Part shown: piece after piece, positions 41,653 to 55,639 of the stretch
How the letters are laid out: the number at the start of each line of letters is the position of its first letter
Numbering within the stretch: the first letter of the stretch is position 1
NCBI GenBank assembly: GCA_015058295.1
Contig: SVCP01000005.1
Coordinates: 1-64,000, forward strand
Source of the DNA: Anaerofustis stercorihominis
Lineage (GTDB): Bacteria > Bacillota > Clostridia > Eubacteriales > Anaerofustaceae
DNA length: 64,000 nucleotides
Reading direction: 5' to 3'
Position numbers and translations under genes: made by a program
The notes under the pieces: model-generated
What the model was told of the DNA's origin: nothing
Database searches by the model: none
Seen by the model: the letters and a program-made list of their open reading frames with translations, nothing else

Positions 41653-41660
41653 TGCTCGTC

Positions 41661-41772
41661 TGAATTTCCGCATGCTGTGTTGTTTGCGGCGTTGCCCGTG
41701 CTCATTTACTGCAAGTAAACCACGCACGTCCGACTTGCAAGCCGCCTTGCCTGCGAAAATTTATACTTCGCT
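41661..41772. repeat. Dispersed palindromic element, copy A
   Basis: An intergenic inverted-repeat block after the ABC operon. Outer arms TGAATTTCCGCA (41661-41672) and TGCGAAAATTTA (41752-41763) pair; within are the blocks CTGTGTTG, GCTCATTTAC-GCAA-GTAAACCAC (central hairpin) and GCCGCCTTGCCT, followed by TACTTCGC. The same blocks recur in copies B (53473-53614) and C (55418-55570) with different but self-complementary arms. A partial second left end (GCTGTGTTG) follows near 41797. No coding potential seen. Confidence 0.75.
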
Positions 41773-41870
41773 TAAAGCCGTACAGAATTCGTTTGTGCTG
41801 TGTTGGGCGGTATCTGCGTGATAATGCGATAAATACAGCAAAAAATAATTGAAATATAGTGGCAAATATG

Positions 41871-41899
41871 TTGACAGAAGCATATTTATATGCTAAAAT
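41871..41899 (+). promoter_or_regulatory. Promoter of infC-rpmI-rplT
   Basis: TTGACA (41871-41876), 17-bp spacer, TAAAAT (41894-41899). Confidence 0.8.
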
Positions 41900-41905
41900 A
41901 CTTGC

Positions 41906-42031
41906 GTTATGTAAAGCAGAAGAAATTGCTTCTCACCTTCCGACTAAGGTTGTAAGGTCAAATATATTGCCACAATGCGTATGCGTATCAATATATGGGT
42001 TGCAGTTTTCTGCGACCTATTTATTTTTTTA
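41906..42031 (+). ncRNA. infC leader RNA, probable autoregulatory (L20-leader-like) element
   Basis: About 125 nt of transcribed leader between the promoter and infC contain a hairpin (AGAAG...CTTCT), an ACCTT...AAGGT pairing, and finally a terminator-like stem with a T-run directly before the infC ribosome binding site. In Firmicutes infC-rpmI-rplT leaders are regulated by L20 through premature termination. I infer the same role; the exact Rfam family cannot be confirmed by eye. Confidence 0.6.
41998..42031 (+). terminator. Attenuator terminator in the infC leader
   Basis: GGTTGCAG (41998-42005) pairs with CTGCGACC (42010-42017), one G-T pair, followed by a T-rich tail with seven consecutive T. 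Confidence 0.72.
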
Positions 42032-42046
42032 CGGAGGTGAATTCGC

Positions 42047-42559
42047 ATTAAAGAATTTCAGATCAACGAACAGATCCGGGATAAAGAGATCAGAGTTATC
42101 GACGAAAACGGCGTAATGCTCGGAGTTATGTCTGCAAGAGAAGCTCAGGTAATCGCTGATGAAAGAGAACTCGACCTTGTAAAAGTCTCTCCGGACGCAA
42201 AGCCGCCTGTATGTAAGATACTTGACTATGGAAAGTTCCGTTACGAACAGGCAAGAAGAGAAAAAGAATCCAAAAAGAACCAGAAAGTGACAGAAATCAA
42301 AGAAGTAAGGACTTCTGTCAGAGTTCAGGATCACGATCTTCAGGTCAAAGTAAAGGCTATTTCCAAGTTCATTGAAGACGGCAACAAAGTAAAAGTGTCT
42401 GTTCGCTTCAGAGGAAGAGAAATGTCTTACACAGAAACCGGCAAGACCTTGCTTCTCAAGATCAAGGATATGCTCGGCGATACTTGTGTAGTGGAAAAAC
42501 CGCCTAAAATGGAAGGTCGCAGCTATGTAATGTATCTTGCACCAAAAAAACAATCATAA
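42047..42559 (+). CDS. infC: Translation initiation factor IF-3
   Basis: A 170-aa protein starting at the non-standard codon ATT (42047), 7 nt after GGAGGTG; no ATG or GTG lies in a suitable place, and the N-terminus KEFQINEQIRDKEIRVIDENG is required by the family. Conserved DLVKVSPDAKPPVCKILDYGKFRYEQ and VKVSVRFRGREMSYTETG are present. AUU starts underlie IF-3 autoregulation in E. coli. First gene of the infC-rpmI-rplT operon. Confidence 0.96.
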   Translation: MKEFQINEQIRDKEIRVIDENGVMLGVMSAREAQVIADERELDLVKVSPDAKPPVCKILDYGKFRYEQARREKESKKNQKVTEIKEVRTSVRVQDHDLQVKVKAISKFIEDGNKVKVSVRFRGREMSYTETGKTLLLKIKDMLGDTCVVEKPPKMEGRSYVMYLAPKKQS

Positions 42560-42589
42560 CGAATACGAAATACTCAGGAGGAAATTTTC

Positions 42590-42784
42590 ATGCCTAAAAT
42601 GAAATCGCACAGAGGTGCTTCTAAGAGATTCAAAAGAAAAAAATCAGGATTGATCAAGCGTTCAAGCGCTATGAAGAACCATATCCTCAACAAGAAAACA
42701 ACAAAAAGACTCCGTAAGCTCAGAAAAGGCGGCTACATTTCCAAAGCTGACTCTAAGAGAATCGGTCAGATTATCGTAAGATAA
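42590..42784 (+). CDS. rpmI: Ribosomal protein L35
   Basis: A 64-aa basic protein, [20 protein letters not shown] at the N-terminus and [20 protein letters not shown] later, the L35 signature. GAGGAAA precedes the ATG. Normal length. Confidence 0.97.
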
Positions 42785-42808
42785 TTAAGTTTAAGGAGGA
42801 TATAAGAA

Positions 42809-43165
42809 ATGGCTAGAATTAAAAGAGGCATTAACGTAAAAAGAAAACATAAAAAAGTATTGAAACAGGCTAAAGGTTACTACGGTGCTAAATCGAAGCT
42901 TTATCGTTCAGCTACAGAAGCTGTAATGAGAGCACAGAGAAGCGCATTTGCAGGCAGAAAGCAGAAAAAGAGAGATATGAGAAAACTCTGGATCGCAAGA
43001 ATCAACGCTGCTGCAAGACTCAACGACCTCAGCTACTCAAGAATGATGCACGGCCTTAAAGTTGCAGGCGTAAACATCGACAGAAAAATGCTCGCTGACC
43101 TCGCTATGAACGATGCAGCTGCATTCACAGCTCTCGCTGAAACAGCTAAAGAAGCTCTTGCTTAA
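42809..43165 (+). CDS. rplT: Ribosomal protein L20
   Basis: A 118-aa basic protein ([37 protein letters not shown]), 23S rRNA assembly protein and likely repressor of its own operon through the leader. AAGGAGG precedes the ATG. Confidence 0.97.
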
Positions 43166-43177
43166 TGAGCTTTATAT

Positions 43178-43206
43178 ACCATCGGATTTTTCCGGTGGTT
43201 TTTTTA
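43178..43206 (+). terminator. Terminator after rplT
   Basis: ACCATCGG (43178-43185) pairs with CCGGTGGT (43192-43199), then a run of T. Confidence 0.82.
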
Positions 43207-43217
43207 TAATATTGAGA

Positions 43218-43250
43218 CACAAAATAAAAATGGCAGTGCGACTGCCATTT
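43218..43250 (-). terminator. Terminator after the alpha/beta hydrolase gene
   Basis: AAATGGCAGT (43228-43237) pairs with ACTGCCATTT (43241-43250), GCG loop; the minus strand continues TTATTTTG after the stem. It begins at the stop codon. Confidence 0.8.
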
Positions 43251-44193
43251 ACAGATATTTTTCTATGAAGTTGTCGATTGTCTTCCAGTATCTTTCATTT
43301 TCAATTACTTCGGACATGCAATGTCTCGCACCTTTTACGCTCATTTTTTCTTTAGGTACGTTTGCGGCATTGTATAATTCGTCCAGGAAAGAAAATGGCA
43401 CAAAATCGTCGTCTTCACCGTGGATGAAAAGTACCGGGATCTTACATTTTTTTATCTGGGAAAGAGGCGATGCTTCGCTGAATGTATACCCGGCTTTTTT
43501 TCTGCTGATAATGTCTGCAATGTGCATAATGGGAAATGCAGGAAGGTGATATCTTACCTTGAGCTGAAGGGAAAATTCTTCCCATACGCCGAGATATGCG
43601 CAGTCGGAGATTGCAAGGCGGACATTTTCAGCAAGATCTTCTTCACCTACGGTGTTCAGAACCGTTGCGGCTCCCATTGACTGACCGAAAAGGATTATTT
43701 TGGATTGAGGGTCGCTTTTTATAATCTCCTCTGCCCATAGTTTTATGTCAAGCCTTTCAAGCCAGCCCATACCTCTGAATCTGCCGCCGCTTTTTCCGTG
43801 TGCTCTTGCATCAACTGCGAGTATATTGAAATTGTCTTTGTAAAGATGCTCCGCTTTACCGAGCATACCGGAAAGATCGCTCGTATAGCCGTGGCACAGA
43901 ATTGCGTATTTGTGAGAGTCGGCTTTGAGGAAGTATCCGAAGAGTTCCGTACCATCAAAGGCATTAACAGTTCTTTCTTCTGCGTTTTTATAGAAAAATT
44001 CTTTCCATTCTTTGCTTCCGCCGATGACAGTAACTGCATAAGCAAGCTCATCCGGATCTGTGGAGAGGCTTTCGAGTCCTTCTTTATGCTCCATTTTTCT
44101 GTCAAGTACAAAATGCACAAGATAATTTGCGATGAAAAAGCATATTATACCGATGAGTATGACTGCAGATAATAAAATCAACAGGATCTTCAT
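43249..44193 (-). CDS. Membrane-anchored alpha/beta hydrolase
   Basis: A 314-aa protein with an N-terminal membrane helix (about 3-27) and an alpha/beta-hydrolase domain of the type labelled dienelactone or acylglycerol hydrolase. Catalytic triad visible: nucleophile Ser in GQSMGAA (about 169-175), Asp in HGEDDDFVP, and His in GARHCMSE; HGYTSD is the oxyanion motif. Faces outward if the N-terminal helix is a signal anchor. Substrate unknown; it sits downstream of spoVA genes but is a separate unit (74-bp gap). Confidence 0.9.
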   Translation of the reverse strand: MKILLILLSAVILIGIICFFIANYLVHFVLDRKMEHKEGLESLSTDPDELAYAVTVIGGSKEWKEFFYKNAEERTVNAFDGTELFGYFLKADSHKYAILCHGYTSDLSGMLGKAEHLYKDNFNILAVDARAHGKSGGRFRGMGWLERLDIKLWAEEIIKSDPQSKIILFGQSMGAATVLNTVGEEDLAENVRLAISDCAYLGVWEEFSLQLKVRYHLPAFPIMHIADIISRKKAGYTFSEASPLSQIKKCKIPVLFIHGEDDDFVPFSFLDELYNAANVPKEKMSVKGARHCMSEVIENERYWKTIDNFIEKYL

Positions 44194-44274
44194 TTATGTT
44201 CCCTCCGGAATGTTTTTTTATATTTTATCATCATACCGGGGGAAAATAAAGAATATCACAGAAAAATCTGCAGT

Positions 44275-44646
44275 TTACATCTTCGTCTTTGCCCGTCCGA
44301 GGAGGGCCATAATAAAACCGAATACTATAGCCGCACATATACCTCCGGCGGTTGCTGTCAGTCCGCCTGTAAATATTCCGATAAAGCCATTTTTATGAAT
44401 TGCGGAAATTGTGCCTTTTACGAGGGAATAGCCGAATCCTGTAAGGGGTACTGTAGCTCCGGCTTTTCCGAATTTTGCTATAGGTTCGTATATGCCGATA
44501 GCTGTGAGGATTACGCCTAAGGTAATATATATTACGAGGATCTGCCCGGAAACGAGCTTCGTATTATCAATAACTATCTGCGCAATAAGGCACAGTATTC
44601 CGCCGACGATGAATACAGGTATATAATCTACTATAATATCAAGCAT
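44275..44646 (-). CDS. spoVAE: Stage V sporulation protein AE
   Basis: A 123-aa protein with three or four membrane segments; IPVFIVGGILCLIAQIVIDNT and VPLTGFGYSLVKGTISAIHKNGFIGIFTGGLTATAGGI are SpoVAE/SpoVAEb signatures. SpoVA proteins form the channel for dipicolinic acid uptake in sporulation and release in germination. It overlaps spoVAD by 8 bp (ATG within the spoVAD end). Confidence 0.95.
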   Translation of the reverse strand: MLDIIVDYIPVFIVGGILCLIAQIVIDNTKLVSGQILVIYITLGVILTAIGIYEPIAKFGKAGATVPLTGFGYSLVKGTISAIHKNGFIGIFTGGLTATAGGICAAIVFGFIMALLGRAKTKM

Positions 44647-45667
44647 TTTGTTTCCCTTTCTTGTTTGAGATCACCACCGCATGAGCTATTGACGGAATGG
44701 AATTTTTCTGATAAGAAGATACTGTTGATAAAAGCGCTCCTGTAGGAACAAACAGTATCTTTTCAAGTTCTTTATTTTTTAATTTCCTGTAAATATGCCC
44801 TGCAAAGACACTCGAAGAGCATCCTGCTCCGCTTCCTCCTGTTTCTGCGTGTTGTTTTGTTGTGTCGTATATCATATGCCCGCAGTCGTTCAGCCTTCCG
44901 CATGGATTATATCCTTCCATTGTGAGAATATCCGTAAGAATGTCAAGCCCTATCTTCGCAAGGTCTCCCGTATATACCATATCATAATCATCAAATGATG
45001 TTCCTGTATCCCTGAAGTGCCTGAGTATGGTGTGCGCCGCCGCAGGTGCCATGGCCGTACCCATATTTGCCGCATCTTTCTGATCGAAATCCACGATTTT
45101 CCCGATGGTCATGTGTGTTATATAAGGACCGCTGCCACCTTTTTCAAGGCTCACGCATCCGGCGCCGGTTACCGTTCTCTGCGCAGTTGATTTTGACTGA
45201 CTTCCCAGCTCAAGGGGCGTGCGGTATTGTCGTTCTGCCGTGCTGAAATGGCTTGATGTGCAGGCAATGACCCTGTTGACAGCTCCCGATTCTATCGCAG
45301 TTGAGCCGATCTGCAGAGCCTGCGCAAATGATGCACAGGCAGAATATATTCCCCAGTACATCATATCATAGTTAAGTGCCGTGAAAGTGGTCGTTATGAG
45401 CTGATTGAGAAGATCTCCTCCGATGATTATATCAATGTCGCTCTGGGTAAATTTTCCCTTTCTCATAAGTGTATCAATGCTTGTTTTCAGCATCATACAT
45501 TCGCCTTTTTCGAAGGTGCTTTCGCCGAGGCAGTCATCACTCACCACAAGATCAAAATCATTCCCTAAAAGTCCCTGCCCCTCCATAGGTCCGACAACGG
45601 ATGCTGTCTGCGAAATGGAAATCTTTTCATCAAAAACTATAGTCTGTTCTCCGATTTTCTTTGCCAT
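44639..45667 (-). CDS. spoVAD: Stage V sporulation protein AD
   Basis: A 342-aa thiolase-fold protein that binds dipicolinic acid. MAKKIGEQTIVFDEKISISQTASVVGPMEG at the start, ECMMLKTSIDTLMRK, SACASFAQAL and the C-terminal block DCGHMIYD are typical. TAGGAGG lies 5 nt upstream. Second gene of spoVAC-AD-AE. Confidence 0.97.
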   Translation of the reverse strand: MAKKIGEQTIVFDEKISISQTASVVGPMEGQGLLGNDFDLVVSDDCLGESTFEKGECMMLKTSIDTLMRKGKFTQSDIDIIIGGDLLNQLITTTFTALNYDMMYWGIYSACASFAQALQIGSTAIESGAVNRVIACTSSHFSTAERQYRTPLELGSQSKSTAQRTVTGAGCVSLEKGGSGPYITHMTIGKIVDFDQKDAANMGTAMAPAAAHTILRHFRDTGTSFDDYDMVYTGDLAKIGLDILTDILTMEGYNPCGRLNDCGHMIYDTTKQHAETGGSGAGCSSSVFAGHIYRKLKNKELEKILFVPTGALLSTVSSYQKNSIPSIAHAVVISNKKGKQNA

Positions 45668-45675
45668 ATATCCTC

Positions 45676-46131
45676 CTAAGATACCATAAGGTAAATGTAA
45701 TAGATTATTCCCACTATCCAGCTCGAGGTGATACCATAAACGAGTACCGGGCCCGCAACCTTAAACATATTTGCTCCCAGACCGAAAATAAATCCTTCTG
45801 ACTTGAATTCCATAGCGCAGGAAACGATGGAGTTTGCAAAGCCCGTAATGGGAACGAATGTCCCTGCTCCTGCAACTCTTCCTATTTTATCGAATATGCC
45901 GAGACCTGTAAGAAGTGCTGTGAGGAATATAAGAATTATTGTCTGAATTGTGGAGGCTTCCGTATAATTCAGGCCGTATCCCTGGAATATATCTATCAGT
46001 ATCTGTGAGAAAACGCATATTCCTCCTCCGATTGTGAATGCGGCAATTCCGTGCTTTACATAAGGCGGTTTCGGGGTTGCTTTAGGGACAGCTTTGTCAA
46101 ATTCCTCCCTGAGTCGTGTTTTATCGTCCAT
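45676..46131 (-). CDS. spoVAC: Stage V sporulation protein AC
   Basis: A 151-aa membrane protein: PKPPYVKHGIAAFTIGGGICVFSQILIDIF, then VAGAGTFVPITGFANSIVSCAMEFKSEGFIFGLGANMFKVAGPV. SpoVAC acts as a mechanosensitive channel in the spore inner membrane. Start chosen at 46131 (MDDKTRLREE) because GGAAGGT lies at the correct distance; an in-frame ATG at 46167 has none. First gene of the operon. Confidence 0.96.
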   Translation of the reverse strand: MDDKTRLREEFDKAVPKATPKPPYVKHGIAAFTIGGGICVFSQILIDIFQGYGLNYTEASTIQTIILIFLTALLTGLGIFDKIGRVAGAGTFVPITGFANSIVSCAMEFKSEGFIFGLGANMFKVAGPVLVYGITSSWIVGIIYYIYLMVS

Positions 46132-46161
46132 AAGTTTACCTTCCGTGAATTTATTTTGTAA

Positions 46162-46190
46162 TAGCATCTGTATTTTTCGTTATTTTATGC
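46162..46190 (-). promoter_or_regulatory. Candidate forespore sigma G/F promoter of spoVA
   Basis: On the minus strand GCATA (46186-46190) and GATGCTA (46162-46168) are separated by 17 bp, close to the sigma G consensus GHATR and CATNNTA with one mismatch, 30 bp before spoVAC. spoVA is a sigma G regulon in Bacillus. Confidence 0.5.
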
Positions 46191-46218
46191 ATTGATGAAA
46201 ATAATGTGTTGACTTTTA

Positions 46219-46247
46219 TTGGTAAGAAAGGAAATCTTATGTATAAT
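46219..46247 (+). promoter_or_regulatory. Promoter of the tandem small-protein genes
   Basis: TTGGTA (46219-46224), 17-bp spacer, TATAAT (46242-46247). Confidence 0.6.
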
Positions 46248-46273
46248 TTAAATATAAGCAATGCGGAGGTAAA

Positions 46274-46417
46274 ATGATGAAGGGGAAATTTACAACAAAA
46301 GATGTGGTTCTATATTCATTGCTTGCAGCGCTTGCATTGTTGGTTCTCTGGCAGATTTATGGATTTCTTGAGCTTGTTATATATATCATTCGCGGGATAT
46401 ATTATTCGGTGATATAA
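46274..46417 (+). CDS. Small membrane protein, 47 aa, paralogue of the next gene's N-terminus
   Basis: A 48-codon frame with GCGGAGG 4-5 nt before the ATG. The product MMKGKFTTKDVVLYSLLAAL then continues with a single hydrophobic helix and ends at IRGIYYSVI. Its N-terminus matches the following protein (MKGKFTTREKVLLSILAV), so it appears to be a shortened duplicate. An alternative ATG lies one codon later. Unknown function. Confidence 0.7.
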   Translation: MMKGKFTTKDVVLYSLLAALALLVLWQIYGFLELVIYIIRGIYYSVI

Positions 46418-46453
46418 TATGAAATTTAATTTAAAGCCGTCAGGAGGAATATT

Positions 46454-46957
46454 ATGAAGGGGAAATTTACAACAAGAGAAAAGGTTCTTTTGTCCATACT
46501 TGCAGTAATTACAGTGGCAATTATCTGGTGTGTCTGTTTTTCCGCAGATACGGTTGATTATGTGGATTTTTCTTCCGATGAAGTTACTTGCGTGGAGATT
46601 GGATTCGACACAGGAAAGAAGCTTACTTTCTCCGAAAGAGAAGATATAGATTTTATACATAAAATGTTTGACGATACTCGTATCGCCCGTTCCGCACATC
46701 CTGACTGGGGCAATTTCCCGTGGATCGCTCTCGGCGGAACGAGAATAATAAATTTTGTATTCTACATCGATGACGGTTACAGCTATCATTACGAACTGTA
46801 TGACTCTACAGATCTCAGAGTAAACAATGTGTATATGACAGACAAAGACGGAAATAAAAGTGATATTGATTTTGTCAAAGTGCCTCTTTCGCCGATAATA
46901 TCGGATTTTGCGTGGTATGCGTACGATAAATATGAACCGGAGCAGATAATCCGTTAA
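46454..46957 (+). CDS. Membrane-anchored extracytoplasmic protein, unknown function
   Basis: A 167-aa protein with an N-terminal anchor (about 9-27, VLLSILAVITVAIIWCVCF) and a soluble domain rich in acidic and aromatic residues. AGGAGGAA precedes the ATG. The first 18 residues resemble those of the preceding 47-aa protein. No known family recognised. Confidence 0.78.
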   Translation: MKGKFTTREKVLLSILAVITVAIIWCVCFSADTVDYVDFSSDEVTCVEIGFDTGKKLTFSEREDIDFIHKMFDDTRIARSAHPDWGNFPWIALGGTRIINFVFYIDDGYSYHYELYDSTDLRVNNVYMTDKDGNKSDIDFVKVPLSPIISDFAWYAYDKYEPEQIIR

Positions 46958-46970
46958 ATTAATACAAAAA

Positions 46971-47003
46971 TATCCCTTACTTTCAGTAAGGGGTATTTTT
47001 TCG
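46971..47003 (+). terminator. Terminator after the 167-aa protein gene
   Basis: TATCCCTTAC (46971-46980) pairs with GTAAGGGGTA, followed by six T. Confidence 0.83.
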
Positions 47004-47033
47004 TCTGATATCCGATAAATCTTATTCTGAATG

Positions 47034-47063
47034 AAAAAGCGATACGTGAAGTATCGCTTTTGG
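47034..47063 (-). terminator. Terminator after the minus-strand lipoprotein gene
   Basis: AAAAGCGATAC (47035-47045) pairs with GTATCGCTTTT (47051-47061); on the minus strand it ends with TTTTTC. Confidence 0.83.
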
Positions 47064-47065
47064 GT

Positions 47066-47722
47066 TTATTCAAAAACTTCTGTTGTCTGTACCATTACGT
47101 TGATCACATCCAAAACCGCCTGTTTCTGTGAATCTTCGTAGTATGTACCTGTATACATACAGAGCCTGTTATCAACAACCGCGTACAGTGCAATCTGATT
47201 TGTGGGAGGTGTCTGCTTGAGGACTTCTCTGCCGCCGAGTGCATCGATCTCTGCTTCTGTAAATAAACCGTTTTTGATCGCCTGATCAATGAGTTCGTCG
47301 TTAATAACCGTCACCAGTTCGATATAAATTACATTTTCATCGTTCAGTCTGCGAAGTTCAAAAACCGAGATTTCTGCAAATCCTATATTTTGTTCAATAG
47401 AGCCTCTGAATGATTCCAGAGCAGCTTCATCGAGTTTCTTCGGGAATGCGGTAAGGTTCTGGATGTTGATATTTACAGCTCCGCCCTGTGTATTCATTGT
47501 CTGTGTGTACATTACTGTGAGGGGGAGTGTGTAGTCAAATCCCGTCCACTCGTCCGCAGGGAAACCTGCTTTTATGGTGTCATCTGTCACATATGCAAGT
47601 TCAGATGATGTTTTGTCCGTTACTTCAAGTACGGGAATGTCCGATGTGTCGTCTCCGCAGGAAAAAAGTCCAAGTGTGAGTAACAGTACAAGTAGTATTG
47701 CTGATAGTTTTTTTAATGTCAT
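47066..47722 (-). CDS. Lipoprotein, unknown function
   Basis: A 218-aa protein with a lipobox (LGLFSC, Cys about 22) followed by GDDTSD. The mature part is an alpha/beta domain with TQGGAVNINIQNLTAFPKKLDE and a C-terminal segment NQIALYAVVDNRLCMYTGTYYEDSQKQAVLDVINVM, resembling proteins of the PsbP-like or DUF1795 kind in outline only. Monocistronic with own promoter and terminator. Confidence 0.8.
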   Translation of the reverse strand: MTLKKLSAILLVLLLTLGLFSCGDDTSDIPVLEVTDKTSSELAYVTDDTIKAGFPADEWTGFDYTLPLTVMYTQTMNTQGGAVNINIQNLTAFPKKLDEAALESFRGSIEQNIGFAEISVFELRRLNDENVIYIELVTVINDELIDQAIKNGLFTEAEIDALGGREVLKQTPPTNQIALYAVVDNRLCMYTGTYYEDSQKQAVLDVINVMVQTTEVFE

Positions 47723-47755
47723 TTATTCCTCTTCCTTTTATGTTTTTATGACTTG

Positions 47756-47784
47756 ATTATAGCATATATAAACTAAACACGCAA
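47756..47784 (-). promoter_or_regulatory. Promoter of the 218-aa lipoprotein gene
   Basis: Minus-strand TTGCGT (47779-47784), 17-bp spacer, TATAAT (47756-47761). Confidence 0.65.
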
Positions 47785-47856
47785 CAGCGCAATGATTATA
47801 CATGCGAAAAGTTTATATATTATAATCTTGAATCGCACATATTCGCATTGTGTATA

Positions 47857-48810
47857 TCAGGAGTTAATATACTCATAAATCTCATCAATAAACGCTTCCG
47901 TATTGTCTTCAGAGTATTCTATTTCCTGGGAATACAGCCTGCATATTTCAATGTAATCATTTTCGGAGAAGGCTTTCTGTCGTTCTGAGACGGCTTTACA
48001 TATTGCATTTATTATGATTGTAGAAATAACACAAAACAGTACCCTTTCATAAAAACACCCGTCATCGAGGGAGCCTGCAAGGTGACGATACAGAAAATAT
48101 ACAATAAGCTGTTCCGTCATCATTTCATATTCTGTGGGGAAAGTCAGCATATCATCATTATCACACTCATAAAGAACCGCAATATAGTTTTTCCAGCTTT
48201 CGTCGAGAATTTCCAGAGAATACATAAAATCTGCCCACTGCGTAAAAGATATGTCGGGCAGAGAGCAGTTATTATATAACAGCAATTTCTTTATTCTGTC
48301 AGAAATATTCTTTTCTCTGTCCGTAAGAATATCAATCATATCATTCCTGCGAAATATGAGCTCGATTTCTTCGAATGTAAAATCTTCCTTGTCCATATCT
48401 CCATCGGAGAGAAGTGTGAATTTATCCTTATTCGTCAGTATCACCCTTGCTGCTTCTTCGCAGGAAAGGCCCAGGCCGATCTCGGTTCTGTCCGTAAAGA
48501 AATTTCTGAAACGGGGGTGGTCCGTGCATATCTGACAGAGAGAATCTTCCCCCATATGTGTGAAGATATCGCAGAGGTTGTTTTTATTCAGAAACGGGCA
48601 TCTCTCATCTTCCGTAAGGATAAATGAGGCGGTGTCACCGTCGGCAGTGATGCATTTTTTTATTCTTTCCGAAAGAACACCTTCGTGTGTACGGTATTTT
48701 TCAAGAGTCTGTGCATCTATGTCTATTTCCCATCCGATACAGCAGTTGTGAGTGCATTTGTCGGCAATGCATCTGAAGTTATTGTAATAATTTGGTATGT
48801 AAATATTCAT
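47857..48810 (-). CDS. FliB-type lysine-N-methylase
   Basis: A 317-aa protein of the flagellin lysine N-methylase family. The N-terminal cysteine set FRCIADKCTHNCCIGWEIDID, CPFLNKNNLCDI and LCQICTDHPRFRNFF is diagnostic and probably binds a metal cluster. FliB methylates flagellin lysines in Salmonella, but many anaerobes carry homologues away from flagellar genes. No motility gene is in this window, so the target is uncertain. Confidence 0.9.
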   Translation of the reverse strand: MNIYIPNYYNNFRCIADKCTHNCCIGWEIDIDAQTLEKYRTHEGVLSERIKKCITADGDTASFILTEDERCPFLNKNNLCDIFTHMGEDSLCQICTDHPRFRNFFTDRTEIGLGLSCEEAARVILTNKDKFTLLSDGDMDKEDFTFEEIELIFRRNDMIDILTDREKNISDRIKKLLLYNNCSLPDISFTQWADFMYSLEILDESWKNYIAVLYECDNDDMLTFPTEYEMMTEQLIVYFLYRHLAGSLDDGCFYERVLFCVISTIIINAICKAVSERQKAFSENDYIEICRLYSQEIEYSEDNTEAFIDEIYEYINS

Positions 48811-48824
48811 ATTTGTTTTATCTG

Positions 48825-48850
48825 AAAAAAACCCGACAAATGTCGGGTCT
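48825..48850 (-). terminator. Terminator after efp
   Basis: ACCCGACA (48831-48838) pairs with TGTCGGGT (48841-48848), long T-run on the minus strand. Confidence 0.85.
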
Positions 48851-48864
48851 TTGATACATTTTAA

Positions 48865-49425
48865 TTATTTAAGTCTTGACATGTATTCGCCTGTTCTTGT
48901 GTCGATACGGATTGTATCGCCTTCGTTTACGAAGAGGGGAACGAGAACGAGTGCGCCTGTTTCAACTGTTGCCGGTTTTGTTGCACCTGTTGCTGTGTTG
49001 CCTGCAACTGCCGGTTCACAAACAGTGATAAGAAGTTCTACAAAGTTCGGTGCTTCAACGCTGAAAGCTTCGCCTTTGTGGAATTTGATTGTTGCTGTCA
49101 TGTCTTCTTTGATGTATTTGATAGCGTCTTCTACCTGTGCATAGTTAAGCGGAACCTGATCGTATGTTTCGTTGTCCATGAAGTAGTAAAGTTCGCCGTC
49201 ATTGTAGAGGTACTGCATTTCTTTTGTTTCGATCATAGCCTTCGGGAATTTGTCCGTCGGGTTGAATGTTCTTTCTACAGTAGCACCTGTTTTTACGTTT
49301 CTGATTTTTGTTCTTACAAAGGCACTGCCTTTGCCCGGTTTAACGTGCTGGAAATCTACGACTACGTAAACATCTCCGTCCATTTCAAAGGTAATACCGT
49401 TTTTGAAATCACCTGCTGTTACCAT
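48865..49425 (-). CDS. efp: Translation elongation factor P
   Basis: A 186-aa three-domain [43 protein letters not shown] contains the modified-lysine loop (GKGSA, Lys about 32). EF-P relieves ribosome stalling at polyproline. Normal length, high-expression codons. No modification enzyme gene is adjacent. Confidence 0.97.
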
Positions 49426-49567
49426 ATTAAATTATCTCGCTTTCGTTTATCTGTCTTACTTGGATTATACCACTCTCTGCATTATAGCATAAAGTATATC
49501 ATCGGTAAATGTTTTTTTAGCTTATATGCCCAAAAAGTAGCATTTTTTCGGGTTGATTGTATTGTTT

Positions 49568-50230
49568 TTACATCTTTGCCGAAAGTTTTGTTATTGATTT
49601 TGTCACAAGTTCTTTTGCTTCCGTCACATTATCCTTCAATGCACCTGTAAATACTGCCGCACTCAGAAGGCTGTCATTCAGAAGTGAGAGGTCTGCGTTG
49701 ATGATTATTTCGCATCCGTTACTTCTTACGGAGAAATTTTTCACAAGAGGAAGGATATCTTTTGTTACTGTCTGCTTTTTCTTGTTTAGCTTTGTAATAA
49801 GTATCTCCTTTGTGCCGTTCATATATTCTGAGAGTGCATTTGCCGCATCTGCCGCTTTATTTTCATCTTCCGCGCAGAGAATTATTTCATAATTTCCCCA
49901 TACGAGAATGGAGGAGAGGGAAGGCGTGCTTTCTGTAACCGGTTCCACACTTACGATAATGAGATCTCTCGGAAGGGTCTTTGTGAGCCTCTCTTTTATT
50001 TCCTGCGCATCAAACTCTCCCACAAGCGCCACATCAAGGTATTCTTCCTTCGATGCCACAAACAGCGGCAGCGGAGGTGAATATGTCATTTTCGGGTGCG
50101 GATGAAAGCCCTGTGTGTATTCAAGCTGAATACGTGTTCTTCTGAACGCCCGCTGGAATACTTTCTGCAGGTCAAGCTGTGAAATAAAAATGAGGGAATC
50201 TTTCTTTTCGTAGCATATTCTATACTTCAA
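49568..50230 (-). CDS. TIGR03936 (DUF2344) radical-SAM-associated protein
   Basis: A 220-aa protein beginning MKYRICYEKKDSLIFISQLDLQKVFQRAFRRTRIQLEYTQGFHPHPKMTY, the DUF2344 signature. It is always found beside or fused with the TIGR03960 radical SAM protein, as here where it overlaps that gene by 11 bp. Role unknown, likely RNA or protein modification given frequent neighbourhood with rne/rng and ribosomal genes. Confidence 0.92.
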   Translation of the reverse strand: MKYRICYEKKDSLIFISQLDLQKVFQRAFRRTRIQLEYTQGFHPHPKMTYSPPLPLFVASKEEYLDVALVGEFDAQEIKERLTKTLPRDLIIVSVEPVTESTPSLSSILVWGNYEIILCAEDENKAADAANALSEYMNGTKEILITKLNKKKQTVTKDILPLVKNFSVRSNGCEIIINADLSLLNDSLLSAAVFTGALKDNVTEAKELVTKSITKLSAKM

Positions 50231-52064
50231 AGTCGCATTTTCCTCCTTCTTTGTTTATTCCGCAGTTTGCGCAGGATTCGTAGCAGTTTTTCGTTGTGGT
50301 TGCTTTCTCTGCCTTCTTTGCTTCACGTACGAAAAATTCCTTTGTTACGCCGATGTCAATGAAGTCCCACGGCGTTGTTTCGTCGTAGGCGAATTCACGG
50401 GATGCTATTTTTTTATGGTCAAGGCCGAATTTGCGGAATGCCTGTGCCCACACATCATCCTTATAATAATCTCCCCAGCTGTCAAAGTAACATCCGTTTT
50501 CGTATGCCTCTATGATAACATCATTGAGTTCTCTGCCGCCTCTTGCAAAGGCTGCTTCCATTACGGATACTGACGAGTCGTGATAGGTGAGTCTTACTTT
50601 TCTGTTTACGTTATCTATAAGAAGTCTCTGCTTCCTGTCAAATTCTTCTTTGCTGTCCTGCGGGAAGAACTGAAACGGAGTATGCGGTTTCGGCACAAAA
50701 CATGCAACTGAAATGGAAAGTTGCAGATCTTTCGGTCTGAGCTTTAATCCGAAATAAATATCAACTATCTTCTGCATCAACTCTCCGATGGCGATGACAT
50801 CTTCGTCTGTTTCAAAGGGAAGACCCATCATAAAATACAGTTTGATCTTTGTGAAGCCGTTGCGGAATGCCTGCTCCATAGTTGTGAGGATATCTTCTTC
50901 CGTAACGTTTTTGTTGATAATATCCCTCATTCTCTGGCTTCCTGCTTCCGGAGCAAGGGTAAGGGGGATAATTCTGCCTTTCTGAATTGAGTTTACAAGT
51001 CCGAGGCTGAAAGAGTCGATTCTGAGTGAAGGAAGGGATACGTTTATCTTGTCGTTTTCGTATTCTTCCATAATATAGCTTATAGCTTCCGTGCAGTATT
51101 TATAATCCGTGGTTGAAAGGGAAGAAAGTGAGATTTCTTCGTATCCTGAGGAAGTAAGCTGGTCATCGATCTGTTTTTTGATGTTTTCGAGACTTTTCTG
51201 TCTGACAGGGCGGTATATAAATCCTGCCTGACAGAAACGGCAACCACGGGGGCACCCACGCATGATCTCTATCATTACTCTGTCGTGTACAGCTTCCACA
51301 AACGGAACGAGTGTGTCTTCCGGATAATATACATCGTTCATATCCGGGATATATGTTCTCTTTATGCTCATGGGAGCGCCTTCAACGAGCGCTTTTCTTT
51401 CGTATTTTTCGTTTACTTCGTAAAACGCAGGAATATAAATTCCTTCAATGTGCATTATAGCCTTCAGATATTCCTGTTTTGATTTGTTTTTATACTGTTT
51501 ATATATTTCGATAAGTTCGGGAACTGCCTTTTCTCCTTCTCCGATAAGGATAATATCAAATATATCACAGTACGGTTCCGGGTTTACATTACAGGGGCCT
51601 CCTGCGATGATAATCGGATAACCGAAATCTTCTCTGTCACGGCTTCTGTATGGGATTCCTGCAAGATCAAGCATGTAAAGTACATTTGTAATGCACATTT
51701 CGTACTGAATTGAAAATCCCACGAAGTCAAAATCCATGAGAGGAGTGAAGCTTTCAAGACCGTAAAGGGGGATATTATGTTCCCGCATAAGTTTTGCCAT
51801 ATCTTCCCACGGAGCATACGCTCTTTCGCAGGTTACCTCCTGCATATCATTGAGAAGTGAGTACATTATCTTCATACCCATATGGCTCATGCCGACTTCG
51901 TAAGTGTCCGGGAAGGTAAATGCAAATTTTACTTCGGCATCTTCCTTTGGTGGTCTGCTTCCGATCTCTCCGCCTGTATATCGTGCGGGTTTGAGCACAT
52001 AGGGAAGTATCTTCGTATAAAGGGTCTCTTTTATTGTTTCGGGTGTAAAGTCTGTTCTTTTCAT
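50220..52064 (-). CDS. TIGR03960 B12-binding-domain radical SAM protein
   Basis: A 614-aa protein. An N-terminal B12-binding-like domain (GSRPPKEDAEVKFAFTFPDTYEVGMSHMGMKI) is followed by the radical SAM core with RGCPRGCRFCQAGF (CxxxCxxC). The C-terminus includes a CYESCANCGIN cluster. Function unknown; partner is the downstream DUF2344 protein. The frame extends upstream to 52223, but 52064 (MKRTDFTPETIKE) fits the family. No ribosome binding site precedes it, and a TATAAT lies only 7 bp before the ATG, so the mRNA is probably leaderless. Confidence 0.93.
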   Translation of the reverse strand: MKRTDFTPETIKETLYTKILPYVLKPARYTGGEIGSRPPKEDAEVKFAFTFPDTYEVGMSHMGMKIMYSLLNDMQEVTCERAYAPWEDMAKLMREHNIPLYGLESFTPLMDFDFVGFSIQYEMCITNVLYMLDLAGIPYRSRDREDFGYPIIIAGGPCNVNPEPYCDIFDIILIGEGEKAVPELIEIYKQYKNKSKQEYLKAIMHIEGIYIPAFYEVNEKYERKALVEGAPMSIKRTYIPDMNDVYYPEDTLVPFVEAVHDRVMIEIMRGCPRGCRFCQAGFIYRPVRQKSLENIKKQIDDQLTSSGYEEISLSSLSTTDYKYCTEAISYIMEEYENDKINVSLPSLRIDSFSLGLVNSIQKGRIIPLTLAPEAGSQRMRDIINKNVTEEDILTTMEQAFRNGFTKIKLYFMMGLPFETDEDVIAIGELMQKIVDIYFGLKLRPKDLQLSISVACFVPKPHTPFQFFPQDSKEEFDRKQRLLIDNVNRKVRLTYHDSSVSVMEAAFARGGRELNDVIIEAYENGCYFDSWGDYYKDDVWAQAFRKFGLDHKKIASREFAYDETTPWDFIDIGVTKEFFVREAKKAEKATTTKNCYESCANCGINKEGGKCDFEV

Positions 52065-52071
52065 AAATTTT

Positions 52072-52100
52072 ATTATAGCAGAAAAACTCACGGTCTGCAA
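52072..52100 (-). promoter_or_regulatory. Promoter abutting the TIGR03960 start codon
   Basis: Minus-strand TTGCAG (52095-52100), 17-bp spacer, TATAAT (52072-52077); the -10 ends 7 bp before the ATG at 52064, so transcription should begin at or next to the start codon. Confidence 0.65.
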
Positions 52101-52187
52101 AAAAACCTCATAATTCATAGAAAAAAATTCATAAGCACAACGCAAATGGCAAAAATGTATTTTTTTCCAGTAACAAGCGATAATGTG

Positions 52188-52216
52188 TTGACATTTTATG
52201 CGGGTGAATGTATAAT
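52188..52216 (+). promoter_or_regulatory. argG promoter
   Basis: Perfect TTGACA (52188-52193), 17-bp spacer, perfect TATAAT (52211-52216). Confidence 0.88.
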
Positions 52217-52222
52217 AATGCA
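52209..52222. promoter_or_regulatory. ARG-box-like operator over the argG -10
   Basis: TGTATAATAATGCA matches TGNATWWWWATNCA at all 14 positions and covers the -10, suitable for arginine-dependent ArgR repression of argG. Confidence 0.6.
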
Positions 52223-52258
52223 AGTGTTATTAATTAAATATACAAGAGGTACATAGAA

Positions 52259-53464
52259 ATGACAATGAAAATAGTTCTTGCTTATTCAGGCGGTCTCGAT
52301 ACAAGTACTATCGTTCCCTGGCTCAAAGAAAATTATGACTGTGAAGTTCACGCTGTATGCGTAAACGTAGGACAGGGCGACAACGAAGAAGAAGTAGTAT
52401 CCCGTGGTCTCAGAATCGGTGCTACAACAGTTCAGTATGTAAACGTAGAAGAAGAATTCGTAAACGATTATGTATTCCCGATGCTTAAATCAGGTGCTAA
52501 ATACGAAGGAAAATACCTTCTCGGTACATCAATCGCACGTCCGCTTATCGCAAAAGTTCTCGTAGACAAAGCAAGAGAACTCGGTGCTGACGCTATCTGC
52601 CACGGCGCAACAGGCAAAGGAAACGACCAGGTACGTTTCGAACTTACTATCATGGCTCTCGCTCCGGAAATGAAGATCATCGCTCCGTGGAGAATCTGGG
52701 ACATCAAATCACGTCAGGATGCACTTGATTACTGCGCAGCAAGAGGAATCGATCTTCCTATGTCAGCAGAAACAAGCTATTCAAGAGACGAAAATATGTG
52801 GCACCTTTCACACGAAGGACTTGAACTCGAAGATCCGGCAAACGGCCCGAACTACGACAAACTCCTACAGCTCACAACTCCGCTCGAAAAGACACCGGAT
52901 GAAGGCGAAGTTGTTGAAATCGAATTTGTAAAAGGTATCCCCGTTAAAGTAAACGGCAAAGAAATGGGCGGAGCAGAAATGATCCACCACCTCAACAAGA
53001 TCGGCGGAAAACACGGCATCGGCGTTGTTGATATGGTTGAAAACCGTGTAGTTGGTATGAAATCCCGTGGTGTATACGAAACACCGGCAGGAAGTATCCT
53101 TTACTTCGCACACGAAGAACTCGAAGAACTCTGCCTCGACAGAGAAATGTCAGCTCTCAAGAGAGAATTTGCCCTCAAATATGCAAACATGGTATATGAA
53201 GGAAAATGGTTCTCAAGAACAAGAGAAGCTCTCGATGCATTCGTTGACAAAACACAGGAAACTGTTACAGGTACAGTAAAAGTAAAACTTTACAAAGGTC
53301 ACCTCATCAATATGGGCAAGACATCTCCGTATTCACTCTATAACCAGGAGATCTCTTCATTCGTAACAGGCGAACTTTACGATCACAAAGATTCAGAAGG
53401 ATTCATCAAGCTTTACGGACTTCCGCTTAAAATTAATGCTATGATGAAAATGAACAATAAGTAA
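52259..53464 (+). CDS. argG: Argininosuccinate synthase
   Basis: A 401-aa enzyme joining citrulline and aspartate with [22 protein letters not shown] (about 3-21) is the PP-loop; [16 protein letters not shown] and the C-terminal [16 protein letters not shown] are conserved. Highly biased codons. Start at 52259, AGAGGT about 9 nt upstream; Met3 is a possible alternative. Not followed by argH, but by a palindromic repeat. Confidence 0.97.
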
Positions 53465-53472
53465 TTCTTGTC

Positions 53473-53614
53473 TAAATGGACGAACCAAAAGAACCATCTG
53501 TGGATGGTTCTTTTTTACTGCGTTGTTTTGAATTTTTGTGCGCTCACGTACTCTTGGGTACGCCACGCTTACAAAAATCCAAAGCCGCCTTGTCTTCGTC
53601 CATTTATACTTCGC
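53473..53614. repeat. Dispersed palindromic element, copy B
   Basis: Outer arms TAAATGGACGAA (53473-53484) and TTCGTCCATTTA (53595-53606) pair perfectly. Inside are a terminator hairpin, then CTGCGTTG, a long imperfect stem (TTTTGAATTTTTGTGCG with CGCTTACAAAAATCCAAA), the central GCTCACGTAC...GGTACGCCACGC hairpin, GCCGCCTTGTCT and TACTTCGC. Same skeleton as copies A and C. It occupies most of the 306-bp argG to HTH gap. Confidence 0.78.
53485..53517 (+). terminator. argG terminator, first copy
   Basis: AAGAACCATC (53489-53498) pairs with GATGGTTCTT (53503-53512), TGTG loop, T-run. Duplicated at 53659-53691. Confidence 0.85.
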
Positions 53615-53658
53615 ATTACCGTGAATTGTATATGTGCGGGAAGGTATGAAGTAACGAT

Positions 53659-53691
53659 CCAAAAGCACCATCTGTGGATGGTTCTTTTTTA
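53659..53691 (+). terminator. Duplicated terminator hairpin, second copy
   Basis: 33-bp block identical to 53485-53517 except one base (GCACC for GAACC), which weakens one pair. The two copies flank the core of element B, 174 bp apart. Confidence 0.8.
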
Positions 53692-53770
53692 GAATTAATA
53701 TATGTTTATATAGGTGTAAATTGCCAATCATATATATCTGTAAATAAATGCAAAAGGGCAGAATAAAGTT

Positions 53771-53971
53771 ATGATCAGATTGACTCTTGACAAGGCATTG
53801 GAAAAATCCGGCATCAGCAGATATGAGCTTGCTAAAAGAACGGGTATGCAATATCAGATAATAGATAATTACTATAAAAACAAAGTGAAAAGATATGACA
53901 GCTATGTGCTTGACAGAATTTGCGAAGCGTTGGGTTGTGATATTTCGGATATTATAGAATATACAAAGTGA
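53771..53971 (+). CDS. Cro/CI-type helix-turn-helix protein
   Basis: A 66-aa single-domain XRE-family protein: LTLDKALEKSGISRYELAKRTGMQYQIIDNYYKNKVKRYDSYVLDRICEALGC contains the HTH (about 17-38). Similar small Cro-like regulators (YozG type) are common in Firmicutes. Weak ribosome binding site. Target unknown; possibly neighbouring genes. Confidence 0.85.
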   Translation: MIRLTLDKALEKSGISRYELAKRTGMQYQIIDNYYKNKVKRYDSYVLDRICEALGCDISDIIEYTK

Positions 53972-53972
53972 T

Positions 53973-54002
53973 ACAGCTGTGTAAATCACAGCTGTTTTTT
54001 TA
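53973..54002 (+). terminator. Terminator after the HTH gene
   Basis: ACAGCTGTG (53973-53981) pairs with CACAGCTGT (53987-53995), followed by seven T. Confidence 0.87.
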
Positions 54003-54130
54003 TTCAGTTCAACGTATGCCGGGCATAACTCAATCTGTTGTTTATTAAAATTGCATTAAATTTCCCAAAATCTTACAATTATGGTGTATAATAAAAATAA
54101 TAAACGCATTTATATTATTTTGGGGGAAAA

Positions 54131-55048
54131 ATGAAGAAGATAATATGTGTATTGGCTGTATGCCTGCTTCTTGCAGGCTGTGACGGCGGACTCGTGGGTC
54201 AGAAAATGACTGAACCGCCGCAGATTGTTGTAAGCGCGTCAGACGTACTTATAGATTACGAAGTCGTAAAAGATAAATGGGGAAAGAATATATACGACAG
54301 GCCGGGGGATGTTGATATTCTTATGCAGACGGATATCGGTGTATTTCCTCCCGACAGTGAAATAACCGTGGATTTCGGGGAAAACACTCCCGACAGTGCG
54401 GAAGTTATCATAACTGATATCAAGATGCTTGCAACGGGATATGAAACTGCAGTGATATCCGAAAAAGCATACGAGCCTTTTGAAGGACTTCTCAGCCTGA
54501 AGGAAGATACGACGGCAGAAGGTTATGATCTTCGTATGTTTGTCATAAAGGCAAAATGGGGAGAAAAATATGAAGCATCGTATATATTTGCGATGAGAAC
54601 TCCCGCATCTGCTGAAAAAAACAACGCCGATGATGAATATTCCCTCGAATGTGAGTATTATCTTTTCAGTGCAGGATATAACGCAGAACTTTCTGCCTAC
54701 GGCGGAGCAAAGATATTTGATACATACGAAGCGTACAACGAATTCTGTTCACGTTACGGAATATCTGTGGGAGAAGGCTCTCTGACGGAAGAAACATTCG
54801 GAAAAAATAATGTTATCGTCGTATTTGACTATGATTCTCCTTCTCCTGCATACAGACAGCCGGAGACTGTAATAAAAAGGCATCGGCTTACAGTGACGAA
54901 ATATGACGAAACAGATAAGATAACCGATTCGAGCATTGTTACAAGAGGGTATGTAATAGTTATCTCAAAGGATACCTGCAGGGTATTTGATATTGATGAC
55001 GATTCTGATCTGTATTATATATGGGGAAGAACCGATATGGAGGAATAA
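54131..55048 (+). CDS. Lipoprotein, unknown function
   Basis: A 305-aa lipoprotein (lipobox LLLAGC, Cys about 17). No known domain recognised; the mature protein is beta-rich with two parts, separated by an acidic linker near residue 170 (AEKNNADDEYS). TATAAT at 54087-54092 could be its -10. Directly precedes a 111-aa gene (stop TAA then ATG one base later), so likely an operon. Confidence 0.8.
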   Translation: MKKIICVLAVCLLLAGCDGGLVGQKMTEPPQIVVSASDVLIDYEVVKDKWGKNIYDRPGDVDILMQTDIGVFPPDSEITVDFGENTPDSAEVIITDIKMLATGYETAVISEKAYEPFEGLLSLKEDTTAEGYDLRMFVIKAKWGEKYEASYIFAMRTPASAEKNNADDEYSLECEYYLFSAGYNAELSAYGGAKIFDTYEAYNEFCSRYGISVGEGSLTEETFGKNNVIVVFDYDSPSPAYRQPETVIKRHRLTVTKYDETDKITDSSIVTRGYVIVISKDTCRVFDIDDDSDLYYIWGRTDMEE

Positions 55049-55384
55049 ATGGCAAAAGTAATGAAAGGCAGAGGAGATGTTGACGCGCTCGCCGCAAAAC
55101 TTGAAAGAAGCATTGATCTGTCAGGCGCATCCACAAAGCTTGTGTACAAGGCAAAAAGAAAGCTCAGCGGAGTGAAGATAGTGATCATGGTATTTGAGCG
55201 GTACTATATGAGAAATTCCTCAAATACATCTCTCACAATCCTGCTTACTTCCGACGCACGTGAGATAACTGCGGATATTATTCCTGCCGGAGGCGGCAAC
55301 GGACTTCTGGGATTTGATCTTGGAAGTGAAGATGATTTTGAGGAAGATGTTATTGAGATCCTCAGGAAAGAAGATTTTAAATAA
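55049..55384 (+). CDS. Hypothetical protein, possibly DUF6054-like
   Basis: A 111-aa protein: KGRGDVDALAAKLERSIDLSGASTKLVYKAKRKLSGVKIVIMVFERYYMR followed by a beta-rich part. It recalls small clostridial DUF6054 proteins, but I hold this loosely. Starts directly after the lipoprotein gene stop; GGAGG upstream. Soluble, no signal peptide. Confidence 0.75.
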   Translation: MAKVMKGRGDVDALAAKLERSIDLSGASTKLVYKAKRKLSGVKIVIMVFERYYMRNSSNTSLTILLTSDAREITADIIPAGGGNGLLGFDLGSEDDFEEDVIEILRKEDFK

Positions 55385-55387
55385 ATA

Positions 55388-55411
55388 AAGCTGTCGGATT
55401 TCCGACAGCTT
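55388..55411 (+). terminator. Palindromic terminator, first copy
   Basis: AAGCTGTCGGA pairs with TCCGACAGCTT through a short loop; 3 bases after the gene stop. Repeated exactly at 55616-55639. Confidence 0.75.
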
Positions 55412-55417
55412 CAGCTT

Positions 55418-55570
55418 GTCGAAAAAGCCCAAACCGCCAAATCATTTATTTGCTGATTTAGTGAGGATTTGGCTTGCTGTGTTAAATTTCCGACTCGAAA
55501 ATGCTCATTTACGGATAGTAAACCACACATTTTCTCGCGTAAATTTGCCTTGCCTTTGGACTTTTCGAGC
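55418..55570. repeat. Dispersed palindromic element, copy C
   Basis: Outer arms GTCGAAAAAGCCCAAA (55418-55433) and TTTGGACTTTTCGAGC (55555-55570) pair with one bulge. Inside are a CCAAATC...GATTTGG hairpin, CTGTGTT, a stem of AAATTTCCGACTCGAAAATG with CATTTTCTCGCGTAAATTT, the central GCTCATTTAC...GTAAACCAC hairpin and TTGCCTTGCCT. Lies between convergent genes. Confidence 0.78.
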
Positions 55571-55587
55571 AACCTGTTAATAAAAAC

Positions 55588-55614
55588 AAACCGCCAAAAG
55601 TTTTTTGACGGTTT
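55588..55614. terminator. Additional hairpin after copy C
   Basis: AAACCGCCAAAA pairs imperfectly with TTTTTTGACGGTTT; part of the tandem hairpin array between convergent genes. Confidence 0.5.
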
Positions 55615-55615
55615 A

Positions 55616-55639
55616 AAGCTGTCGGATTTCCGACAGCTT
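55616..55639 (-). terminator. Palindromic terminator, second copy
   Basis: 24-bp block identical to 55388-55411; serves the minus-strand gene ending at 55645. The two copies bracket element C, 228 bp apart. Confidence 0.75.

Follow-up and report, generated by a model that had tools for sequence, protein, structure and literature searches.

Three imperfect palindromes lie within a 64,000-nt stretch of the Anaerofustis stercorihominis genome (GenBank assembly GCA_015058295.1, contig SVCP01000005.1, positions 1 to 64,000 of the forward strand; hereafter the window), and the question that they raise is whether they are RNA structures belonging to the ends of genes or copies of an element that moves. 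The initial annotation of this DNA had described them, as copies A, B and C, as a dispersed element in which conserved blocks are separated by segments that differ in sequence and still pair, and had offered both a 3' untranslated region (UTR) structure and a mobile repeat as readings. The sequence comparisons reported here give good support for a mobile repeat that folds in a strand-specific manner. This repeat is probably a non-autonomous mobile element resembling miniature inverted-repeat transposable elements (MITEs), the folded strand of which would be recognised by a factor acting in trans.

All three copies and their shared blocks were located in the sequence where the initial annotation had placed them, and the core of the element, GCTCANNTAC..GTA, occurs three times in the window compared with 0.18 occurrences expected from shuffled sequences. 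A stricter core pattern matched 25 times in the 1.83-Mb source genome (12 and 13 on the two strands, respectively), and a reversed-pattern control gave 0 matches. A covariance model built from window-type copies (R1), the training set of which included copy A and neither B nor C, scored A, B and C with E values of 1.6e-32, 7.6e-14 and 8.3e-6, respectively. Across the source genome, R1 found 42 copies at E<=7e-4 and 45 at E<=0.1, and the count is given here as at least 42; the same-genus genome G001 has at least eight copies, and two further genomes of the order have one each. The copies share a recurring fold: one long hairpin whose stems, free in sequence, are separated by three conserved internal loops. 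Loop 1 is formed by GCTTGTCTRAAT with ATTTATMCTKCGC, loop 2 by CTGYGTTG with CCGCCTTGYCT, and the third loop flanks the core hairpin, whose arms covary (TTTAC/GTAAA, TGTAC/GTACA and CGTAC/GTACG). When 12 window-type copies were aligned, 57 cells had changed on both sides with pairing kept versus 21.7 in shuffles, the covariation score was 0.290 versus 0.111 (0 of 500 shuffles), and sliding the partners abolished pairing. The genome search and covariation test that the initial annotation had proposed therefore yielded both further copies and significant covariation, and its view that the family is dispersed and selected for base pairing holds. Two of its details were revised: the block to which it gave a fixed five-nucleotide loop has the conserved blocks as described around a loop of 4-6 nt, and the copies are full-length elements in the cases of A (plain) and B (with an added hairpin) only, as copy C has just the inner 80 bp in common with them and represents a distinct subtype with its own ends, here called type C.

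Relatives in other genomes, which had been anticipated, are present in Bacillota, Actinomycetota and Gammaproteobacteria. They were gathered with a loop-2 pattern in the phylum and then with a longer pattern in a genome collection, a procedure that partly imposes the invariance within the two search blocks and leaves the stems and the tip hairpin unaffected. The resulting superfamily, represented in the Gammaproteobacteria by Guyparkeria, consists of imperfect hairpins of 125-180 bp in which the internal loops are conserved and the stems covary freely; where ends are detectable the median length is 160 bp, the arms pair out to the ends, and no open reading frame (ORF) belongs to the element. 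A second covariance model (R2), made from 57 foreign elements and containing no sequence from the source genome, recovered copy A (E 5e-5, minus strand) together with 15 others in own-genus and same-order loci, and R1 recovered foreign elements at their positions with E values down to 4e-9. The models from each side thus find the other, and the window type belongs to the superfamily; loop 1 of the window type is also present in some foreign elements (e.g., L146, L148, L180, L232 and L084). The 57-element alignment gave a covariation score of 0.681 versus 0.195 when shuffled and 413 double-changed cells versus 148 (0 of 500 shuffles), with 87.6% of its cells paired versus 30-47% when partners were slid. 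Among 391 genomes of the class, 42 had R2 matches; copies found with this model numbered 109 in Frankia sp. CIT1, 92 in Streptomyces sp. NBC_01481, 66 in a Blautia metagenome-assembled genome (MAG), 56 in a Butyrivibrio MAG and 34 in Guyparkeria hydrothermalis. Throughout, the interior is conserved across phyla and the ends differ between clades. Hairpin modules have been added at loop 2 in several lineages, namely in window copies B and C and in a subfamily in genome G596 (L349, L358-L362 and L366), where an extra hairpin, CACAAAAAATACCAAC..GTTGGCATTTTTTGTG, lies in loop 2 and is matched by an insertion opposite to it. Plasmid matches were restricted to Streptomyces replicons and were intergenic, with no transposase adjoining the two Streptomyces copies inspected. 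Viral contigs were dropped as carriers, since the five superfamily-pattern matches on them looked like coding sequence.

The strand on which the element had originally been described is not the one under structural constraint. Of 121 superfamily elements, 119 fold better in the complementary strand, with a mean advantage of 16.4 kcal/mol, and 117 of 120 do so when DNA folding parameters are used; within the window's own genus this is the case for 25 of 28 copies, the strand that folds better running antisense to the upstream gene. In the outer arms of the superfamily, single mismatches with good pairs on either side were also unequal in number, with G.T outnumbering A.C by 199 to 27 and G.A outnumbering C.T by 72 to 10. 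The excess of G.T over A.C extends along the whole arm and is found in low-GC (142 vs 25) and high-GC (57 vs 2) genomes. Both mismatch counts would be expected to be equal if the double strand alone mattered; the G.T excess therefore argues for constraint on one strand. Together, these comparisons indicate that one strand is under selection to fold, either as RNA or as single-stranded DNA. A reading of the G.A-rich loops as kink-turns was dropped, because the bulge is not on the side of the G.A pairs that a kink-turn requires.

The position of the copies relative to genes bears on whether the fold belongs to a messenger RNA. An upstream gene was callable for 24 pattern copies in the source genome, and 22 of these stand behind a gene of the same strand, at or just past the stop codon or the terminator T-tract, which agrees with the original placement of the copies directly downstream of genes; the two exceptions are L019 and L001, the latter of which, by our reading of the sequence, appears to sit behind a signal recognition particle RNA gene. 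This placement is what would be expected of a 3' UTR structure that is transcribed with the upstream gene and protects or processes the mRNA end, as is the fact that some copies, such as A, begin at the stop codon itself and are not preceded by a terminator. However, many source-genome copies have an intact terminator ahead of them and begin in its T-tract or beyond it, the better-folding strand is the antisense one in the own-genus copies counted above, orientation relative to genes is about even in other genomes (46 vs 36), and foreign copies are recent insertions flanked by TA. The mobile half of the original pair of readings is thus retained, and a 3' UTR RNA is considered very unlikely. 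Even less credence is given to the proposal that these are transcription terminators, intrinsic or bidirectional, copied from place to place in the genome, which would account for the gene-end location and for the terminator-like hairpins that accompany type C. By the criterion for intrinsic terminators, a GC-rich hairpin and then a T-tract, the T-tract is absent after type A and B hairpins and the terminators stand beside or inside the elements; moreover, the elements are far longer than terminators and often adjoin intact ones. Elsewhere in the same order, single copies lie between ornithine carbamoyltransferase-like and phosphoglucomutase-like genes (L057, genome G041) and between gap-like and pgk-like genes (L058, genome G040), the second having loop 2 present twice in one hairpin.

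Evidence of movement came from the Clostridiaceae genome G459, in which 18 copies of 160 bp are 98-100% identical over the query and are surrounded by unrelated sequence. All 18 are flanked by TA, mostly within CTAG, and TA is found near both ends in 50 of the 70 superfamily elements with detectable ends. From these flanks we infer that the G459 copies inserted at TA and duplicated it, and TA insertion is consistent with what is seen in the window's genus. The IS630/Tc1-like and IS5/IS427-like families of insertion sequences (IS) duplicate TA and prefer CTAG. The elements could therefore be ordinary MITEs of such IS, with a resident DDE transposase binding the ends at TA in CTAG and the conserved interior simply carried along, and DDE_Tnp_1 genes are indeed present in some carrier genomes; we regard this as possible, although on balance unlikely. 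A conserved interior with clade-variable ends is the reverse of what end-binding alone would predict, both DDE_3 and DDE_Tnp_1 are absent from G001 as well as from the source genome, and no intact IS with matching ends was found in G459 or G596. Because no matching IS was found, the elements are called MITE-like only. Two observations concern the sequence around CTAG. At G459 loci L265, L267, L270, L275, L276 and L278, many recent copies lie in CTAG followed by AGCGTGTTTGAAA or a similar sequence, and this flank looks like the end of another repeat serving as a landing site. At L344, a long palindrome, TTATTTATTATTCGTTGTACTAGTACAACGAATAATAAATAA, centred on CTAG, adjoins the element as if two elements had been joined end to end.

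A duplication of another kind was observed with type C. When the sequences on the two sides of the element were compared, their match scored >=15 in 5 of 12 type-C copies (from two genomes), whereas none of 132 cross-locus pairs reached that score. The duplicated terminator stretch is 16-27 bp long and varies in sequence by locus, and because it is locus-specific it looks like a duplication made upon insertion. Such units, in which a terminator-like hairpin (hairpin Y) stands between the 16-27-bp duplications, are what target-primed reverse transcription could give, and they raise the possibility that the folded strand is a structured RNA taking part in its own spread by retroposition, as a bacterial counterpart of short interspersed nuclear elements. 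The tolerance of G.T pairs, the G.A-rich loops and the addition of hairpin modules at one loop are likewise RNA-like, and one source-genome copy, L006, looks 5'-truncated. Nevertheless, retroposition is judged improbable: there is no promoter signal on the folded strand, the type-C anatomy would require transcription of the other strand, and the recent TA-flanked copies resemble the products of DNA transposition.

Recognition of the folded strand is the most economical explanation, because it explains at once why the loops are conserved, why the stems covary, why one strand is favoured and why the ends change. The element, ORF-less and about 125-180 bp long, is a single long imperfect hairpin with a ladder of conserved loops, its stems being free to vary provided that they pair. 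Full-length copies would insert at TA, often in CTAG, leaving TA on both sides, as the near-identical copies in one foreign genome show. In the window's genus, copies are seen to take up one constant orientation just after stop codons and terminators, and type-C copies are seen to end up between two copies of the host terminator. Most likely, a factor supplied in trans would recognise the folded single strand through the conserved internal loops and the ends at TA and would move the element, with terminators and gene ends serving as tolerated landing sites. A more far-reaching proposal is that this is a deeply conserved selfish element that crosses phyla, for which the folded single strand rather than the ends is essential; it would move in a structure-guided and possibly RNA-mediated manner, swap its terminal repeats and enzyme between hosts, and, in the window's genus, insert into terminator hairpins and duplicate them whole. 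We put this forward as speculation that is rather unlikely to be correct as a whole.

It should be noted that several results weigh against the idea that a trans-acting factor recognises the folded strand. No moving enzyme was found in searches for DDE_3, DDE_Tnp_1 and Y1 (reverse transcriptases and other transposase families were not searched), and the mechanism of movement is one that we infer. The IS630 domain DDE_3 is absent in eight of nine carrier genomes, the source genome included; DDE_Tnp_1, which some other carriers have, is absent in the source genome, G001 and G413; and Y1 is absent in G267 and G413. An R1 search found no element beside the Y1 loci of G000, G001, G268, G370, G407, G447 and G459, and no copy with a gene or transposase between its halves was found among lone half-matches in foreign loci, G459 and G596, a 20-contig genome included. 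No empty site was recovered for the window copies; for copies B and C, argG was found in G001 at 89% identity and the sequence beyond argG was not recovered. The type-C duplication of 16-27 bp is unlike a 2-bp duplication of TA, and two insertion modes may therefore be mixed. The comparisons do not tell an RNA fold from a single-stranded DNA fold, and promoter signals on the folded strand are in no excess over the other strand, which does not favour the RNA form. Finally, the wobble excess is absent in the window's own genus (G.T 18 vs A.C 34, conserved loop mismatches included), so the claim of a constrained strand there rests on folding energy and on G.A mismatches outnumbering C.T by 60 to 0.

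The same searches bear on whether the element is folded single-stranded DNA moved by a Y1 (HUH) transposase, in the manner proposed for repetitive extragenic palindromic (REP) sequences and their REP-associated tyrosine transposases (RAYTs) or for IS200/IS605. A strand-specific fold that tolerates G.T pairs would suit such an enzyme, and seven of the nine carrier genomes have Y1-family genes, among them RAYT-like genes that stand singly in G000 and G001. This idea is nonetheless improbable, since two carriers (G267 and G413) are without Y1 and the element adjoins no RAYT-like gene, direct inspection of the RAYT-like loci of G000, G001, G268, G370 and G407 also having revealed no flanking element. 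The RAYT-like Y1 proteins of the window's genus (G001:C73:12856-13170, L301 and L328; end of G000:C8, L325) read DRANFL where the Y1 proteins of other carriers read DNHVHM or DNHIHV, and the HUH motif of the G000/G001 protein therefore looks degraded; this protein is possibly a domesticated transposase. In addition, TA on both sides differs from IS200/IS605, and the elements bear no GTAG tag. Insertion of IS200/IS605 makes no target duplication.

The anatomy of the window copies illustrates the three subtypes. Copy A is a full type-A element of 125 bp (41651..41775) whose start overlaps the TAA stop codon of the preceding ABC-transporter ATPase gene; it is annotated on the minus strand, which is the better folder across the family. 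Its conserved loop-2 block is read from the sequence as CTGTGTT on the 5' side (41675..41681) and GCCTTGCCT on the 3' side (41744..41752), and the core pattern search places the core hairpin GCTCA-TTTAC..GTAAA-CCAC at 41700..41723. Copy B (53466..53618, minus strand) is a full element with one extra hairpin, has a fold z of -7.97, and is matched by R1 over 53491-53618. Its outer arms are TAAATGGACGAA (53473-53484) and TTCGTCCATTTA (53595-53606), its loop-2 block is CTGCGTT (53518-53524) with GCCTTGTCT (53587-53595), and its core hairpin, found by the same pattern, is GCTCA-CGTAC..GTACG-CCAC (53542..53566). The extra hairpin (53487..53516, plus strand) is terminator-like and stands immediately before CTGCGTT; a second copy of it, identical at 29 of 30 bases, is found 42 bp beyond the end of copy B (53661..53690, plus strand). 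Locus L006 has a comparable hairpin at the same position, and the copy there starts at ACTGCGTTG right after the terminator T-tract, as if truncated at loop 2.

Copy C is a type-C element of 165 bp (CAGCTTGTCGAAAAAGCC ... GGACTTTTCGAGCAACCTG; 55412..55576, minus strand), which R1 matches over the inner 55475-55554. In addition to its different ends, it has its own extra hairpin, CCGCCAAATC..GATTTGGC (55434..55473), between the outer stem and loop 2, and is trailed by hairpin Y of the type-C unit, ACAAACCGCCAAAAG..TTTTTTGACGGTTT (55586..55614), the stem of which is altered on both sides between type-C copies. The loop-2 block is CTGTGTT (55477-55483) with GCCTTGCCT (55547-55555), and the core hairpin from the pattern search is GCTCA-TTTAC..GTAAA-CCAC (55503..55526). 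The unit is enclosed by a duplicated pair of terminators on the plus strand, terminator X (55387..55411) and its second copy X' (55615..55639), which match exactly over 25 bp; a second comparison gave a 26-bp match. Some source-genome copies also carry other sequences. A second structured element (GCGTCGAAACATCTTTGATTTGCCTCGAAAGTACC..., approximately 220 bp) lies directly after CCACGC in L001, L005, L008, L010 and L021, five copies of differing subtypes, and looks like a secondary insert that targets the hairpin repeat; the type-C copy at L003 has, at the same site, an insert of other sequence with a similar multi-hairpin design.

Small palindromic repeats are usually taken to be genus-specific debris of local insertion sequences; here one blueprint recurs across three phyla, strongly covarying, clearly preferring one strand and reaching up to approximately 100 copies in a genome. 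If the proposed reading is true, few non-coding mobile elements of bacteria would be spread as widely as these, and they pose the concrete question of which enzyme or host process recognises the folded strand. They would also account for unannotated intergenic hairpins and for some contig breaks, and a covariance model is ready for use in annotation. The terminator duplications of type C would represent an unusual choice of target.

The element was compared with known systems. The initial annotation recognised no named family, and Rfam 15 likewise gave no relevant match for the window or for 27 element-bearing loci, either at the gathering score or at E<=1; no family description was found by sequence string or topic among open PMC papers, a search that did not extend to ISfinder. 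Integron attC sites are imperfect hairpins with one functional strand, and the superfamily resembles them in being an imperfect hairpin with one strand constrained; unlike attC sites, its members are scattered single copies at gene ends and not cassette arrays, no systematic attC search having been made. Group IIC introns insert behind terminator hairpins and do not duplicate the terminator, whereas type C does; the superfamily is also much shorter and gave no group II intron match in Rfam. BOX and SPRITE elements are described as pneumococcal/streptococcal (PMC3049150). The superfamily shares with BOX a modular, tightly folded build, and SPRITE resembles a terminator, but the sequence of the superfamily differs from those of BOX, RUP and SPRITE, and a multi-loop ladder is not reported for BOX or SPRITE (PMC3049150). 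REPs of the GTAG superfamily, which are 20-40 bp long and begin with a GT(A/G)G head, lie on either side of RAYT genes (PMC2817692); the present elements are likewise palindromic, dispersed, often downstream of genes and able to form hairpins when single-stranded, but they are 125-180 bp long, are without a GTAG/GTGG head and flank no RAYT-like gene. CGTC REPs, mostly of alphaproteobacteria, are 20-40 bp long with an AT-initiated stem of 8-9 bp and a CCA tail (PMC3733652). The superfamily lacks this stem and tail and is about five times longer; like CGTC REPs, it is palindromic and crosses phyla, no dedicated transposase was found for it, and its block CTGCGTTGTCGTC contains CGTC. MITEs such as RUP, Nezha, ERIC and Correia elements are ORF-less, highly paired, intergenic sequences of <200 bp with terminal inverted repeats and target duplication, present in many near-identical copies in some genomes (PMC3049150). 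The superfamily is similarly small, ORF-less, paired, intergenic and TA-flanked, with recent bursts in some genomes; however, MITEs are mostly restricted to a single genus or species and correspond at their ends to a resident IS, whereas the superfamily, for which no matching IS was found, conserves its interior across three phyla.

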